From: Urechidicola croceus
Lineage (GTDB): Bacteria > Bacteroidota > Bacteroidia > Flavobacteriales > Flavobacteriaceae
Assembly (NCBI RefSeq): GCF_001761325.1
Contig: NZ_CP017478.1
Location: 2,377,501-2,441,500, forward strand
Direction: 5' to 3'
DNA length: 64,000 nucleotides
Positions 30,262 to 34,984 of this stretch are shown here, piece by piece (within the stretch, counting starts at the first letter, position 1; each line of letters starts with the position of its first letter). Below the pieces are notes generated by a model. The model did no database searches and had not been told where the DNA came from. It worked only from the letters and a program-made list of their open reading frames with translations. The position numbers and the translations under genes were made by a program.

Positions 30262-31002
30262 ATGTTAAAAATTGTTATTGTTGACGATGAAAATGACGCA
30301 TTAGAAGCACTAGAATGGAAATTGAATCGATACATTGAAAATGTTGAAGTAATAAAATGTAACTCACCTATTGAATCAATTGATATTATAAATAAAGAAC
30401 TTCCTGATGTTGTCTTTCTTGATATTCAAATGCCTGAAATGGATGGGTTTACACTTTTGGAAAATTTATCTAATAGAAAATTCAATCTTATTTTTACAAC
30501 AGCCCATGATGAATTTGCCTTGAAGGCAATAAAAGTTTCTGCAATAGATTATTTGTTAAAACCAGTTGATAAAGATGAACTTATAGAAGCTGTTGATAAG
30601 ATTCAAAAGGTTAAAAAAGGGGAATTGTTAGAAGACAAATTACAATTATTATTAGGAACTTTAGATGAAGCAAGTAATGATAAAATCAATATTTCTGCTG
30701 ACGGAAAAGTATATTTACTAGATAAAGATGAGGTTGTGATGTTGAAATCTGATAAAAGTTATACGACTATTTATTTAACAAATGAACAACAAATAGTAGT
30801 TTCAAAAACTTTAAAAGAAGTTGAGAAAAAATTTCAATTTCCACAATTTTTTAGAGTTCATAACTCCTATTTAATCAATTTAAATCATGTAAAAGAATAC
30901 CTAAAAGGTTTAGGAGGAGAATTGATTATGAGTAATGGTTTTACAGCAGCTATAAGTAGAAATAAAAAAGCAGAATTATTTAAAAAATTGTATTTAGACT
31001 AG
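30262..31002 (+). CDS. LytTR-family response regulator
   Basis: This 246-residue protein has an N-terminal receiver domain with the phosphoacceptor Asp54 in VVFLDIQMPEMDGF, the acidic pair DDE (near 8-10) and the conserved Lys in LLKPVDKDELI. The C-terminal half is a LytTR DNA-binding domain (FRVHNSYLINLNHVKEY, about residues 195-212). Such regulators bind paired short direct repeats in DNA. The two histidine kinases follow in the same orientation, nine bases and one short gap downstream, so the three form a likely signalling operon. Confidence 0.94.
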   Translation: MLKIVIVDDENDALEALEWKLNRYIENVEVIKCNSPIESIDIINKELPDVVFLDIQMPEMDGFTLLENLSNRKFNLIFTTAHDEFALKAIKVSAIDYLLKPVDKDELIEAVDKIQKVKKGELLEDKLQLLLGTLDEASNDKINISADGKVYLLDKDEVVMLKSDKSYTTIYLTNEQQIVVSKTLKEVEKKFQFPQFFRVHNSYLINLNHVKEYLKGLGGELIMSNGFTAAISRNKKAELFKKLYLD

Positions 31003-31011
31003 ACCACACGA

Positions 31012-32349
31012 ATGCTAACCGATTTTCATTCAGAAATTTATTCTTGGGTTCGTGGAGGACTCTTTGTTTTGGCAATTTATCATTTATTGATATATTTTCA
31101 AAATGATAGAAAGTTATATCTGTATTATAGTTTGTACTTACTCTGTACATTCATTTTTTTTTCAAAACATATTTTTCCCCAAGGAACTGTTGATGGGATA
31201 TATCAATATATTAACTTTTCTATACATTTTTTAGCATTTGCATCTTATCTTGTTTTTGGAAGATTAATTCTTGAGACAAAGAGTAGAATGCAAAAATTAG
31301 ATTCTTATATCAATATTTTTATAAAGACATTACTTGGTTTAGGAGGAATGTTCTTATTAGTCCAATTGTTATTTGGTTATCAATTTCAAATAAAAATGAT
31401 ATTGATAATTTGGCCAATACTTTCCATTTTTATGATTGTCGGACTTGTACTAACTTTAAAGATAAAATTACCTTCAGTAAGATATTTCTTTTTAGGGTCA
31501 ATAATTTACATTATTTCTACTAATATTAGTTTGTCACAGTTTCTATTTGGAAAGGAAGTTTTTTTAAAAAAAGGAATTGATCCGTTATTTTTTACATACG
31601 TAGGAGCCTTAATTCAGGCGATGGTTTTTGCATTTATTATTGGATTAAGTATAAAGCGAATAGAACAAAAAAATAAAAATGCCGAAGTAAGATTGGCATT
31701 TAAATATAAAGAATTAGAGGAATTAAAAATGACAGCACTGCAAAGTCAAATGAATCCTCATTTTTTATTTAATTCATTAAACTCAATTAATAATTTTGTT
31801 TTAAAAAGCGAGGTAGAAAAAGCTTCTGATTATATAACTAAATTTTCAAGATTAATTCGAGTTATACTTAAGAGTTCATCAAGTCTTACTATTCCTTTTT
31901 CAGAAGAATTAGGAATTTTATCTCTATATGTAAAATTAGAGCAGATGAGAATTAATGGAGGTTTTGAATATATTGTTAATATTGATAAAGGGATTAAATT
32001 AGAAGAAATAAAAGTTCCGCCATTATTTTTACAACCTTTTTTAGAAAACTCTATTTGGCATGGTTTGACTCATGTTGAAGGAGAAAAGAGAATTTCATTG
32101 ACAATAAAAAAAGAGGAGGATAATATACGGTGTATTATAGTAGATAACGGTATTGGTATTAACAAAGCTAGAGAAGAAGCCCACAAAAAAATAAGTAGAA
32201 GGAAATTTTTTGGAACTCAAGCCACAGAGAACCGTATAAGGTTACTATATAGAAATTCAAATGTTATTATAAACGTAAATGATATTTCAAAGGACACCAA
32301 CACAGGGACTAAAGTAGAAATTGTATTTCCGCATATTATAAAGGGTTAA
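31012..32349 (+). CDS. LytS-type sensor histidine kinase, copy 1
   Basis: This 445-residue kinase has an N-terminal membrane domain of about seven helices (to about residue 215), then a histidine kinase domain with the phosphorylated His250 in QSQMNPHFLFNSLNSINNFV. The ATP-binding domain contains FLQPFLENSIWHGL (N box) and IIVDNGIGI (G1-like box). It resembles other membrane-embedded LytS-type kinases with a 7TM input. It should phosphorylate the LytTR regulator upstream. The next gene is a tandem paralogue of exactly equal length, with His at the same position. Confidence 0.92.
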   Translation: MLTDFHSEIYSWVRGGLFVLAIYHLLIYFQNDRKLYLYYSLYLLCTFIFFSKHIFPQGTVDGIYQYINFSIHFLAFASYLVFGRLILETKSRMQKLDSYINIFIKTLLGLGGMFLLVQLLFGYQFQIKMILIIWPILSIFMIVGLVLTLKIKLPSVRYFFLGSIIYIISTNISLSQFLFGKEVFLKKGIDPLFFTYVGALIQAMVFAFIIGLSIKRIEQKNKNAEVRLAFKYKELEELKMTALQSQMNPHFLFNSLNSINNFVLKSEVEKASDYITKFSRLIRVILKSSSSLTIPFSEELGILSLYVKLEQMRINGGFEYIVNIDKGIKLEEIKVPPLFLQPFLENSIWHGLTHVEGEKRISLTIKKEEDNIRCIIVDNGIGINKAREEAHKKISRRKFFGTQATENRIRLLYRNSNVIINVNDISKDTNTGTKVEIVFPHIIKG

Positions 32350-32415: not shown

Positions 32416-33753
32416 ATGTTTACAGATTTTGATGCTGAATTATACTCATGGGTTAGAGGAGGACTCCTTCTCTTAGCAGTTTATCATATATTGATATATT
32501 TTCAAAATCAAAAAAAACTATACTTATTTTACGGTTTATACTTATTAGGTATTTTTATTTATTATGCCAAACATCTTTTTCCTTTAGAATTAGGAGAGAG
32601 TATATACCATTACATCAATTTTCCGATTCATTTTTTATCCTTTGCCTCTTTTTTTACTTTTGTAAGGGTTTTACTTGATATGAAGGTAAAGTTACCGAAA
32701 TGGGATACTTATTTCAATATTGGAGTAAAAGCTTTGATTTGGACTGCGCTATTATTTCTTTTAATACAATTTACACTAGGGTATCAATATCAAGTCATGC
32801 TTATAAAGTTTGTCGCTCCATTTTTATCCATATTAGTTATCGTTGCTCTTTTTAAAATATTAGCAATAAAAATACCAATGGCTAAATATCTTTTTATTGG
32901 AGCAATAAGTTATATTCTTTTAAACAACATTACTTTACTTCAAGAATTTTTAGGGAAAGATTTTTTTCTTAATTTAGGAGTTGAGCCGTTGTTTTTTTCA
33001 TATTTAGGCGCTTCAATTCAAGCTGTAATATTCACTTTAATTATTGCATCGAGGATAAAAGTGATTGAAGAAACTAATAAAAATGCTGAAGTTAAATTGG
33101 CGTTTAAATTTAAGGAGTTGGAAGAATTAAAAATGACAGCATTACAAAGTCAAATGAATCCACATTTTTTATTTAATTCATTAAATTCAATTAATAATTT
33201 TGTTCTAAAAAACGATGTAGAAAAAGCATCCGATTATATAACTAAATTTTCTAGATTAATAAGAGTTATCCTTAAGAGCTCATCTAGTCTTACAATTCCT
33301 TTTTCTGATGAAATAGGAATACTTTCCTTATATGTAAAACTAGAACAAATGCGTATTACTGGAGGTTTTGAATATGTTGTCAATGTTGATGAGGAAATAA
33401 ATTTAGAGGCCGTTAAAGTGCCTCCGTTGTTTTTACAACCCTTTATTGAAAATTCAATTTGGCATGGTTTAGCTCAAATAAAAGGAGAAAAGAAAATATG
33501 TTTAAAAATTACTAAAGAAGAGGGCTCAATACGATGTGTAATTATTGATAATGGTATTGGAATTAATAAAGCTAAAAAAGAGACTCATAAGAAAATTAAT
33601 AGGAGAAAATTTTTTGGGACCAAAGCAACAGAGAATCGAATTCGATTGTTATATAAAAATTCAAATGTTGATGTTAATATTTTAGATATTTCCAATGAAA
33701 AAACTACAGGAACTAAAGTAGAGATTGTTTTTCCATATATAATAAAATTATAG
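32416..33753 (+). CDS. LytS-type sensor histidine kinase, copy 2
   Basis: This 445-residue protein is a tandem paralogue of the preceding kinase. The kinase half is nearly identical, with His250 in QSQMNPHFLFNSLNSINNFV, FLQPFIENSIWHGL and IIDNGIGI. The membrane half differs more, with conserved beginnings (LYSWVRGGLLLLAVYHILIY against IYSWVRGGLFVLAIYHLLIY). The pattern suggests a shared output and different input signals. A 66-base gap separates the genes, with no clear terminator. Both probably signal to the same LytTR regulator, but copy 2 could serve another partner. Confidence 0.92.
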   Translation: MFTDFDAELYSWVRGGLLLLAVYHILIYFQNQKKLYLFYGLYLLGIFIYYAKHLFPLELGESIYHYINFPIHFLSFASFFTFVRVLLDMKVKLPKWDTYFNIGVKALIWTALLFLLIQFTLGYQYQVMLIKFVAPFLSILVIVALFKILAIKIPMAKYLFIGAISYILLNNITLLQEFLGKDFFLNLGVEPLFFSYLGASIQAVIFTLIIASRIKVIEETNKNAEVKLAFKFKELEELKMTALQSQMNPHFLFNSLNSINNFVLKNDVEKASDYITKFSRLIRVILKSSSSLTIPFSDEIGILSLYVKLEQMRITGGFEYVVNVDEEINLEAVKVPPLFLQPFIENSIWHGLAQIKGEKKICLKITKEEGSIRCVIIDNGIGINKAKKETHKKINRRKFFGTKATENRIRLLYKNSNVDVNILDISNEKTTGTKVEIVFPYIIKL

Positions 33754-33838
33754 AATCCATTTATTTAATATTTTAGACCGTATGTTGTTTTTTTCAGAGC
33801 ACACATTTATTTAGCAAAATTATATCACTATCCTGTTG

Positions 33839-33846
33839 TACTTTTG
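33839..33846 (+). promoter_or_regulatory. -7 box before the small gene at 33875
   Basis: TACTTTTG matches TAnnTTTG exactly; no -33 TTG was seen at the usual distance. Confidence 0.45.
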
Positions 33847-33874: not shown

Positions 33875-34153
33875 ATGTTCATAAATAATACGGCAGCAAT
33901 GACATTAATTTCTTTTATTTTCCCCACAGACAAGGATATTCTAAGGGATCTTAAAGAAGAGTCTCAAACTATAAATTTTATTGGAGAAGGAAGCATTTCA
34001 CAAAATGTTGAGGAGACTAAATTTTATAGAAATTTCAAATATAGATTTGATAAAGAAAACACGATAAGACAAGTTGTCTATTTTAAAAAAGGACTTATGT
34101 GGGAATTTAAACGTGTTATTTCAATTCAAAACAACGGCGAAATAGCAGGGTAA
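33875..34153 (+). CDS. Small hypothetical protein
   Basis: This protein of ~92 residues is not recognised. It is basic and aromatic-rich in the second half (YRNFKYRFDKENTIRQVVYF), with no signal peptide or cysteine motif. The start is unclear: a longer reading begins at 33836 inside the -7 box, the ATG at 33875 gives MFINNTAAMTLISFIFPTDK, and a later ATG is at 33899. It lies between the kinases and the tandem small RNA units. It may be a real gene, but the coding evidence is limited. Confidence 0.5.
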   Translation: MFINNTAAMTLISFIFPTDKDILRDLKEESQTINFIGEGSISQNVEETKFYRNFKYRFDKENTIRQVVYFKKGLMWEFKRVISIQNNGEIAG

Positions 34154-34210
34154 TACAAGGTGTTTAATTACCATTTGTTGTTCAATTTGAGTAGTTTACA
34201 GTTTTTTTAT

Positions 34211-34227
34211 TTCCGTTTTTTTTATTT
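34211..34227 (+). promoter_or_regulatory. Shared upstream element, copy 1
   Basis: TTCCGTTTTTTTTATTT lies 26 bases before the -7 box of small RNA unit 1. The same element, one T shorter, precedes unit 2 at 34389. Conservation between copies, where the sequence between element and -7 box is not conserved, suggests a regulatory or upstream promoter role. Confidence 0.5.
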
Positions 34228-34253
34228 CATGAATTAAACATAAATGATAACTA

Positions 34254-34261
34254 TATATTTG
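34254..34261 (+). promoter_or_regulatory. -7 box of small RNA unit 1
   Basis: TATATTTG, an exact TAnnTTTG match, lies directly before the conserved transcript core; the second copy is at 34431-34438. Confidence 0.7.
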
Positions 34262-34266
34262 TAATA

Positions 34267-34337
34267 GTAAATGAGTCTTTGGGGTTGATTTATTTATAAC
34301 TCGAGAAAAAGTTTAACTTTTTTCTCGAGTTTTTTTT
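34267..34337 (+). ncRNA. Putative small RNA, unit 1 of a tandem pair
   Basis: The predicted ~71-base transcript starts a few bases after the TATATTTG box and ends at a strong terminator. From the box to the first terminator arm, 50 of 52 bases are identical to unit 2, 177 bp downstream. The core reads GTAAATGAGTCTTTGGGGTT and continues GATTTATTTATAACTC. It contains a five-codon reading frame, ATG AGT CTT TGG GGT TGA (MSLWG). The hairpin AACTCGAGAAAAAGTT pairs with AACTTTTTTCTCGAGTT, followed by seven T. I cannot match it to a named RNA family. A leader-peptide role is possible, but no gene lies directly downstream. Confidence 0.65.
34298..34337 (+). terminator. Terminator of small RNA unit 1
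   Basis: Arms at 34298-34313 and 34315-34331, with one bulged A and a 1-base loop (the innermost pairs would open to a usual loop), then a T-run. Relative to unit 2 one pair differs by a compensatory change (G-C to A-T). Confidence 0.85.
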
Positions 34338-34388
34338 ATATAAATTTTCCAAATGTTCAAATATTTGTACCATTTATAGATTTTCTAC

Positions 34389-34404
34389 TTCCGTTTTTTT
34401 ATTT
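34389..34404 (+). promoter_or_regulatory. Shared upstream element, copy 2
   Basis: TTCCGTTTTTTTATTT, the second copy of the element at 34211, again 26 bases before a TATATTTG box. Confidence 0.5.
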
Positions 34405-34430
34405 AGTCTTTTCAGTACAGAGAAGTAATA

Positions 34431-34438
34431 TATATTTG
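34431..34438 (+). promoter_or_regulatory. -7 box of small RNA unit 2
   Basis: TATATTTG, an exact TAnnTTTG match, at the same distance from the conserved core as in unit 1. Confidence 0.7.
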
Positions 34439-34443
34439 TAGTA

Positions 34444-34512
34444 GTAAATGAGTCTTTGGGGTTGATTTATTTATAACTCAAGTTAAATTAATACTTTTTC
34501 TTGAGTTTTTTT
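34444..34512 (+). ncRNA. Putative small RNA, unit 2 of a tandem pair
   Basis: This second copy of the unit gives a ~69-base predicted transcript. It has the same core and the same MSLWG reading frame. Its terminator is AACTCAAG (34475-34482) pairing with CTTGAGTT (34500-34507), with T-run to 34512. The middle part between the arms differs from unit 1. The T-run ends at the CYTH gene's stop codon, which is read on the other strand. Confidence 0.65.
34475..34512. terminator. Terminator of small RNA unit 2
   Basis: An 8-bp stem AACTCAAG/CTTGAGTT, then T-run. It lies between convergent transcripts and may also stop transcription of the CYTH gene on the minus strand, since A-runs are on the other side only in part. 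Confidence 0.75.
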
Positions 34513-34984
34513 ATGTCCAATTTTTAAAAGAGTTTTTACTCAATTCAGAATTATAGTATTTAATAATTCCCGTAACTTCTTTTCCTAACCATTTTGGTTT
34601 GTCAAAATCTTCATTTTCTTCAGAAAGTTCAATTTCAGCAATAACTAAACCTATATTGTCTCCCAAAAATTCATCTACTTCAAATGTATGCTTGCCTTTT
34701 TTAATAAAATGACGGTATTTTTCAATTACACCTTTCTCACATAACTTTAATAATGATTCAGCATCTTTTTTAGAAATTTTCTTCTCCCATTCAAACCTTG
34801 TAAGCCCTTCTTCATTAGATATACCCTTAACTGTGAGGTATCCGGATTTATCAATCAGTCGGACTCTTACAACACGGTTTTTATTCGAATTTAAAAAACC
34901 TTGCTTTATATATGAAGTTTTGAAACTTTCAGATTTAAAGGAGTCGTTCTTTAATAAGAATTTTCTTTCTATTTCAACTGCCAT
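34511..34984 (-). CDS. CYTH domain protein (triphosphate tunnel enzyme)
   Basis: The 157-residue protein begins MAVEIERKFLLKND, which contains the ExExK signature of CYTH/triphosphate tunnel metalloenzymes. Further tunnel residues appear in RVVRVRLIDKSGYLTVKG, FEWEKKI and FEVDEFLGDN ... IAEIELSEE. Bacterial members commonly hydrolyse inorganic triphosphate with Mg2+ or Mn2+; cyclic AMP synthesis is another known activity of the family. Two bases separate it from the membrane protein gene upstream on the same strand, so they are co-transcribed. Confidence 0.92.
   Translation of the reverse strand: MAVEIERKFLLKNDSFKSESFKTSYIKQGFLNSNKNRVVRVRLIDKSGYLTVKGISNEEGLTRFEWEKKISKKDAESLLKLCEKGVIEKYRHFIKKGKHTFEVDEFLGDNIGLVIAEIELSEENEDFDKPKWLGKEVTGIIKYYNSELSKNSFKNWT

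Follow-up and report, generated by a model that had tools for sequence, protein, structure and literature searches.

The RNAIII molecule of Staphylococcus aureus represses surface proteins through loop pairing, and in the CiaR-dependent csRNAs of streptococci and the Qrr RNAs of Vibrio several near-identical short sRNAs, some of them in tandem, are assigned to a single response regulator. The best-known target of YpdB, a LytTR regulator of Escherichia coli, is the transporter gene yhjX, and we know of no sRNA in the YpdAB or BtsSR regulons. To our knowledge, few flavobacterial sRNAs have been assigned either a regulator or a target, and our search of the literature found no report of a link between LytTR regulators and sRNAs in Bacteroidota. 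With respect to the DNA elements recognized, AgrA binds a pair of direct repeats that precede the RNAIII promoter (PMC4227749), while the general design of a LytTR site consists of two repeats of 9-11 nt separated by a spacer of 11-13 nt, that of YpdB being a direct repeat of GGCATTTCAT (PMC4847170).

The locus described here lies in a window of 64,000 nucleotides from Urechidicola croceus, whose genome is a single contig of 3,426,122 bases. Similar to the AgrCA-RNAIII system of S. aureus, a LytTR response regulator and upstream direct repeats appear to drive a regulatory RNA encoded beside a two-component operon. In contrast with that system, the RNA is of ~72 nt and occurs in tandem copies, the promoter is of the Bacteroidota -7 type (TAnnTTTG) and the kinases are of the 7TMR-DISM LytS type. 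The RNA did not match RNAIII or any other Rfam family at gathering or relaxed thresholds, in agreement with a first-pass annotation, made from the sequence alone, which could name no family for it. Nor does the RNA encode delta-haemolysin: a single start-to-stop reading (MSLWG) was noted within the 72 nt of the unit, and it is not conserved. The resemblance to YpdAB and BtsSR of E. coli resides in the LytTR regulator: the GGCATTTCAT of YpdB is close to ACCATTTAT of this system, and BtsR is the top NCBIfam model of the response regulator in the window (E 1e-42, under that model's cut-off). The csRNAs and Qrr RNAs resemble this locus in that several short sRNAs, almost identical to one another, come under one response regulator, but CiaR is of the OmpR type, LuxO is of the NtrC type and the RNAs are unrelated in sequence. 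Rfp18 of Flavobacterium psychrophilum, a functionally tested sRNA, is likewise flavobacterial but is described with at least three stem-loops and metalloprotease targets (PMC9723704). What is new here is the sRNA family and, if the pairing discussed below is right, also a regulatory circuit assembled from parts of familiar types; neither the RNA family nor the target code has been described before.

Two short RNA units and their relatives

The first-pass annotation had placed two near-identical units, each with a promoter, a short RNA and a terminator, just after genes for a LytTR regulator and two kinases. Pfam bears out this operon, which on the plus strand comprises the response regulator gene (Response_reg and LytTR domains; positions 30262-31002 of the window), histidine kinase 1 (7TMR-DISM_7TM, His_kinase and HATPase_c; 31012-32349) and its tandem paralog, histidine kinase 2 (32416-33753), both kinases being 7TMR-DISM/His_kinase proteins. 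The units themselves are as had been described. Read directly from the sequence, their -7 boxes (TATATTTG) lie on the plus strand at 34254-34261 and 34431-34438, 177 bp apart, and from the -7 box to the first terminator arm 50 of 52 bases are identical, two positions differing. With start sites inferred from the position of the -7 box, as there are no transcript data, the predicted RNAs extend on the plus strand from 34266 to 34337 (sRNA 1; covariance model E 3.4e-14) and from 34443 to 34513 (sRNA 2; E 6.3e-12). What had been regarded as a 40-base transcript core is present, but in itself constitutes a hairpin of 11 bp, capped by a 9-nt loop rich in G. In each RNA the strands GUAAAUGAGUC and GAUUUAUUUAU enclose the loop UUUGGGGUU, and a terminator hairpin and T-run follow directly (hairpin 34267-34297, loop 34278-34286 and intrinsic terminator 34298-34337 in sRNA 1; hairpin 34444-34474 and intrinsic terminator 34475-34513 in sRNA 2). 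Compared with dinucleotide shuffles the folds gave z scores of -5.97 (RNA 1) and -3.69 (RNA 2), none of the 200 shuffles being equally good.

The compensatory change from G-C to A-T between the two terminator stems, also reported in the first-pass annotation, is real (CTCGAG/CTCGAG versus CTCAAG/CTTGAG). Across 61 distinct sequences the terminator displays two-sided changes at 12 of 12 pairs, a count made on an alignment that was fitted to the covariance model and is biased towards it. In the same sequences the loop hairpin displays one-sided exchanges only, mainly A-U/G-U on the 5' strand, and its 3' strand, GAUUUAUUUAU, is nearly invariant, indicating that both the sequence and the structure of this hairpin are constrained. 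The RNAs of Lutibacter and of genus g4 possess an extra 5' hairpin, UGUCAAGAGGGGUUUUGACA, and thus two GGGG loops per RNA.

The proposed check of whether the core is conserved outside this genome gave a positive answer, with conservation in congeners and in other genera and divergent spacers. A BLAST search with one unit retrieved matches in its own genome and in all 13 of the 13 congeners searched. Tandem pairs are present in several Urechidicola genomes (G000, G002, G007, G008 and G009), and in G011 a second copy is carried by a different contig. A search with an exact 17-mer from the core matched 9 of 301 family genomes, including other genera, while the reversed control gave 0; the 17-mer matches L033 and L040, where the sequence contexts are unrelated, were attributed to chance. 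A scan of genome contigs yielded 52 loci, mainly from Lutibacter and also from Aureivirga, Urechidicola and other Flavobacteriaceae, to which the covariance model R1 added genera g3 and g202, with the loops UUAGGGGUAG and UUUUGGGGU. The range of the sRNA comprises 13 congeners, ~35 Lutibacter species, Aureivirga and three further genera, although several of these counts come from species related to one another, and do not represent independent events. Outside the Flavobacteriaceae no convincing match was identified, strong R1 matches were absent outside the named genera and the viral contigs searched contained none. The weak R1 matches L075-L090 and L315-L317 were rejected as mostly terminators without a G-loop hairpin, as was L314, which also lacks this hairpin and has a regulator match only at the level of a paralog (38%).

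Linkage to the operon and promoter repeats

When neighbourhoods were compared in relatives, as the first-pass annotation had suggested, the sRNA was found almost always directly behind the orthologous regulator-kinase operon, with the next gene changing. At loci with long flanks (g1, g4, Lutibacter and Aureivirga) it lies on the strand of the operon, ~100 to 700 bases behind either the kinase gene or the small-protein gene after it. The sRNA is also next to the kinase in g202 and in one g3 copy, and other g3 sRNAs are at the expected distance from the regulator; the exception is the second copy in G011, located on a short contig that lacks the operon. The gene after the sRNA varies, and can be CYTH on the opposite strand, porZ, recO or unrelated genes. 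In the window, the claim that no gene follows the units in the same direction holds across 2 kb, and 3' of the units are a CYTH gene and a membrane-protein gene, both on the minus strand. Each unit has its own promoter and an intrinsic terminator, and is conserved beyond the neighbouring coding sequence, as would be expected of a free-standing gene. Thus, the earlier view of the units as free-standing sRNAs is supported by conservation across genera, by the position behind the operon with a changing downstream gene and by the covarying terminators.

Orthologs of the response regulator with at least 63% identity occur in 8 of 201 family genomes, its own included, the next best match being 50%. 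They belong to genera g1, g4, Lutibacter, g202, Aureivirga, g3 and g139, and share these genera with the strong sRNA matches (E<1e-5), g139 excepted. In g139 the regulator and the boxes described below are present and the sRNA was not found; a boxed promoter driving a homolog of the 84-aa protein discussed below occupies the place of the sRNA behind the operon (L143:5394-5633).

Upstream of each unit the first-pass annotation had noted a conserved TTCCGTTTTTTTATTT element. This element is genuine, but it represents the promoter-proximal member of a series of repeats phased at 21 bp, whose better-conserved partners (ACCATTTRT) sit further upstream and had been missed. On the plus strand the LytTR-type repeats of unit 1 span 34169-34219 (TACCATTTG at 34169, a degenerate copy at 34190 and TTCCGTTTT at 34211) and those of unit 2 span 34347-34397 (a degenerate copy at 34347, TACCATTTA at 34368 and TTCCGTTTT at 34389). 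In 58 units aligned on the -7 box, boxes conforming to NNCCRTTYR are found at -84 (or -83) and at -63 (or -62), and are all but absent from other positions; both boxes are present in 41 of the 58 units and at least one in 54, against a background of 0.0005 per position. Urechidicola has a third repeat at -42, which is the TTCCGTTTT element seen previously, and in most g3 copies the upstream repeats are unrecognisable. These 9-nt direct repeats, with a 12-nt spacer and a period of 21 bp, meet the design of a LytTR site.

The excess of box pairs is restricted to genomes that hold the regulator. In 10 such genomes 68 pairs were counted compared with 18 for a reversed-pattern control, while in 13 genomes without the regulator the excess was absent (about 36 versus 40 in the control). 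Two boxes combined with the -7 pattern were identified at 76 sites in 38 Lutibacter genomes (control, 0) and at 5 sites in 38 genomes lacking the regulator (control, 3). We conclude that the repeats are the putative site of this response regulator, or of a regulator that always accompanies it, although binding has not been shown. That the sRNAs are controlled by the regulator, which had been raised as no more than a possibility, is strongly supported by the exact phasing of the repeats and by their excess only where this regulator is encoded. A paralogous LytTR regulator (~40%) was rejected as the main owner of the boxes because there is no excess in genomes without a close ortholog of the response regulator. 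Upstream regions of Lutibacter also contain another recurrent phased repeat, CCRTTCAYCGAYA (G438:C110:8741, G446:C67:11047 and G463:C158:4459), to which a LytTR paralog perhaps binds.

Boxed promoters and C-rich boxes in mRNAs

Beyond the view of the first-pass annotation were the co-regulated mRNAs that contain C-rich boxes, and the small-protein gene that shares the promoter type of the sRNAs. This gene, which encodes a conserved 84-aa protein, lies between kinase 2 and the sRNAs (33899-34153, plus strand). It is preceded on the same strand by LytTR-type repeats at 33755-33784 (ATCCATTTA at 33755 and a degenerate GACCGTATG at 33776) and by a -7 box, TACTTTTG, at 33839-33846. The box begins 84 bp before the -7 box, and the offset is equal in most congeners in which both are recognisable. 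The protein has no Pfam or NCBIfam match; its AF2 model (pLDDT 85) consists of one helix and a four-stranded sheet, for which a fold search returned no significant PDB match.

Lutibacter genomes contain about one further boxed promoter each, driving a secreted protein. In G458 this T9SS type-B protein is 3614 aa long and has choice-of-anchor-L, PKD and CHU_C domains. Its gene is followed by those for PorP/SprF and an OmpA protein, with an M3 peptidase gene beyond on the other strand; in L. litoralis the same boxed adhesin-type promoter adjoins lpd. Between lpd and the M3 peptidase gene the genome of the window has kept the promoter and a leader-like noncoding stretch, and the adhesin gene is absent. 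The boxed promoter is followed there by ~1 kb without an ORF (L185:3410-4540; G000:C1:2978410 onward) containing repeated hairpins with the loop UGUGGGG (plus) or CCCCACA (minus), an arrangement suggestive of either a multi-hairpin RNA or what remains of an adhesin operon since lost. Genes for short proteins that look secreted lie behind a boxed promoter in G000, G002 and G007, the leader motif being UUCCCACAA. In G007 and G002 a second short RNA, with the loop UGUGGGG, is located behind a boxed promoter (GAGTCTTGTGGGGAGAC and CTAGTATTGTGGGGATAC; L300 and L299). This second type of sRNA (L300:3060-3135 and L299:390-470) carries UCUUGUGGGGAGA and UAUUGUGGGGAUA, the former being the exact complement of CCCCACAAGACTC in some Lutibacter adhesin leaders. 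After it comes a HAD-type hydrolase-like gene (IKLICSDIDGTLLNKDREL; L228/L300), at a gap of ~90 bp in G007 and >450 bp in G002.

The motif CCCCACA is present in 21 of 22 Lutibacter adhesin-type leaders, with 37 occurrences compared with 0.6 expected in shuffles, and is usually found at about position 16 and again ~25 nt on, when the leader is counted from 5 nt after the -7 box. In Urechidicola, CCCCACAGA occupies codons 9-11 of the small-protein gene in 11 of 11 intact species; in the window these codons are CCC ACA GAC and form the predicted site of pairing with the sRNA. CCC represents 10 of the 142 Pro codons in nine genes of the window, and the Lutibacter orthologs of the small protein have CCT, CCA or CCG at this position, without CCCC. 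Considered purely as elements of the sequence, the C-boxes are well established as conserved. In the predicted duplex between the sRNA segment AGUCUUUGGGGUUGAU and the small-protein mRNA, AGAC and CCCCA are paired with one mismatch between them, often with a UUAU extension. The best duplex at codons 9-11 beats most synonymous recodings in 10 of 11 species; in the window's own species it was no better than such recodings, 114 of 200 being as good. The energies of duplexes between Lutibacter sRNAs and leaders are indistinguishable from those of dinucleotide shuffles (mean z -0.49), and whole-leader duplex energies were set aside as uninformative. A contiguous complement of CCCCACA would be UGUGGGG, whereas the sRNA has UUUGGGG, so that UGGGG:CCCCA is accompanied by a mismatch or bulge. 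That this sRNA recognizes the C-boxes is the simplest interpretation, but with mixed energy tests it is not proven.

A putative feed-forward circuit and its rivals

We consider it rather probable, though by no means secure, that the response regulator switches on both the G-loop sRNAs and the C-box mRNAs, and that the sRNA regulates these mRNAs by pairing. In such a circuit the two units would be copies of one trans-acting regulatory RNA of ~72 nt. The membrane kinases would activate the adjacent LytTR response regulator, which in its active form would bind the direct repeats (NNCCRTTYR), phased at 21 bp, that precede the -7 box, thereby turning the sRNAs on. The regulator would also turn on a few mRNAs, those of the adjacent 84-aa protein and, in Lutibacter, of a giant T9SS-secreted adhesin. 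The hairpin loop of the sRNA would expose UGGGG, the likely partners of which are the CCCCA boxes that the co-regulated mRNAs carry in their leaders or first codons. As the site is in the initiation region, pairing would most simply repress translation by blocking ribosome loading, resulting in a feed-forward circuit that limits or delays production. It should be emphasized that within this circuit the sRNA gene, its structure, the regulator-type promoter and the C-boxes are established by comparison, while transcription, binding of the response regulator, sRNA-mRNA pairing and the sign of regulation are inferred, there being no RNA-seq, footprint or mutant data. Whether a single LytTR regulator, by turning on G-loop sRNAs and mRNAs with matching C-boxes, places cell-surface adhesion under RNA feed-forward control is a more tentative matter, to which we give slightly less than an even chance; the targets would be the giant type-IX-secreted adhesin operon in Lutibacter and the small conserved protein in Urechidicola.

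It could be argued that the sRNAs are real and LytTR-controlled, but that the CCCCACA boxes are read by another RNA or protein and the sRNA acts on other mRNAs. This would be consistent with a universal complementarity of just UGGGG:CCCCA (5 bp), with the unremarkable duplex energies of the leaders and with the second RNA type, which has an exact UGUGGGG behind a boxed promoter in two Urechidicola genomes. The G-loops and C-boxes, however, co-occur inside one small regulon, and fixation of the CCC Pro codon is confined to the genus in which the small-protein mRNA adjoins this sRNA; a different reader of the boxes is unlikely, but remains a serious possibility. The near invariance of the loop, and the frequent occurrence of about two loops (in several Urechidicola as two one-loop RNAs, in Lutibacter as a single RNA with two GGGG loops), may also indicate that repeated GGGG loops titrate an mRNA-binding protein, following the logic of CsrB/RsmZ. 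We regard such a sponge as improbable, as the repeated ANGGA loops of Csr/Rsm RNAs are absent (the loops are UUUGGGGUU and of the GAGGGGU type), the 3' stem strand is likewise nearly invariant and the co-regulated mRNAs hold C-rich complements. The intrinsic terminator that ends each unit could point to a cis-acting attenuator or read-through terminator of a neighbouring gene, a reading that was rejected and has very little left to recommend it, given that every unit has its own promoter and that the downstream gene varies, the window having no same-strand gene for 2 kb. Finally, the five-residue peptide MSLWG (ATGAGTCTTTGGGGTTGA), envisaged as a leaderless micro-ORF or signal peptide and encoded in nearly all Urechidicola copies, is refuted almost beyond doubt by the loss of its ATG in G006 (AAATAAGTC) and in the Lutibacter, Aureivirga and g4 copies, where the hairpin and loop stay and the changes keep pairing rather than codons.

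If the circuit in which the sRNA pairs with co-regulated mRNAs is true, it extends LytTR-to-sRNA systems beyond the Firmicutes and ties RNA control to type IX secreted adhesins. Comparative genomics yields here an sRNA family, the probable activator and DNA site of that family, a regulon of very few members and candidate boxes in the targets, and all of these are open to mutation in cultured species of Lutibacter or Urechidicola.

Two further observations concern sequences related to the boxes and the RNA. Box pairs are present upstream of a gene resembling, from its sequence, bshB1 (bacillithiol deacetylase, bacillithiol synthesis) in G009, G006, G084 and G218, which represent three genera, at another spacing from the -7 box (L189:4357, L191:4466 and 5808, L198:521 and L201:4244). 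In g3 genomes a further G-loop hairpin and terminator lie directly after a ppnP-like gene (nucleoside phosphorylase; L145:4997-5070, L146:5621-5692 and L150:5064-5138), and this copy is possibly a 3'-UTR-derived RNA.
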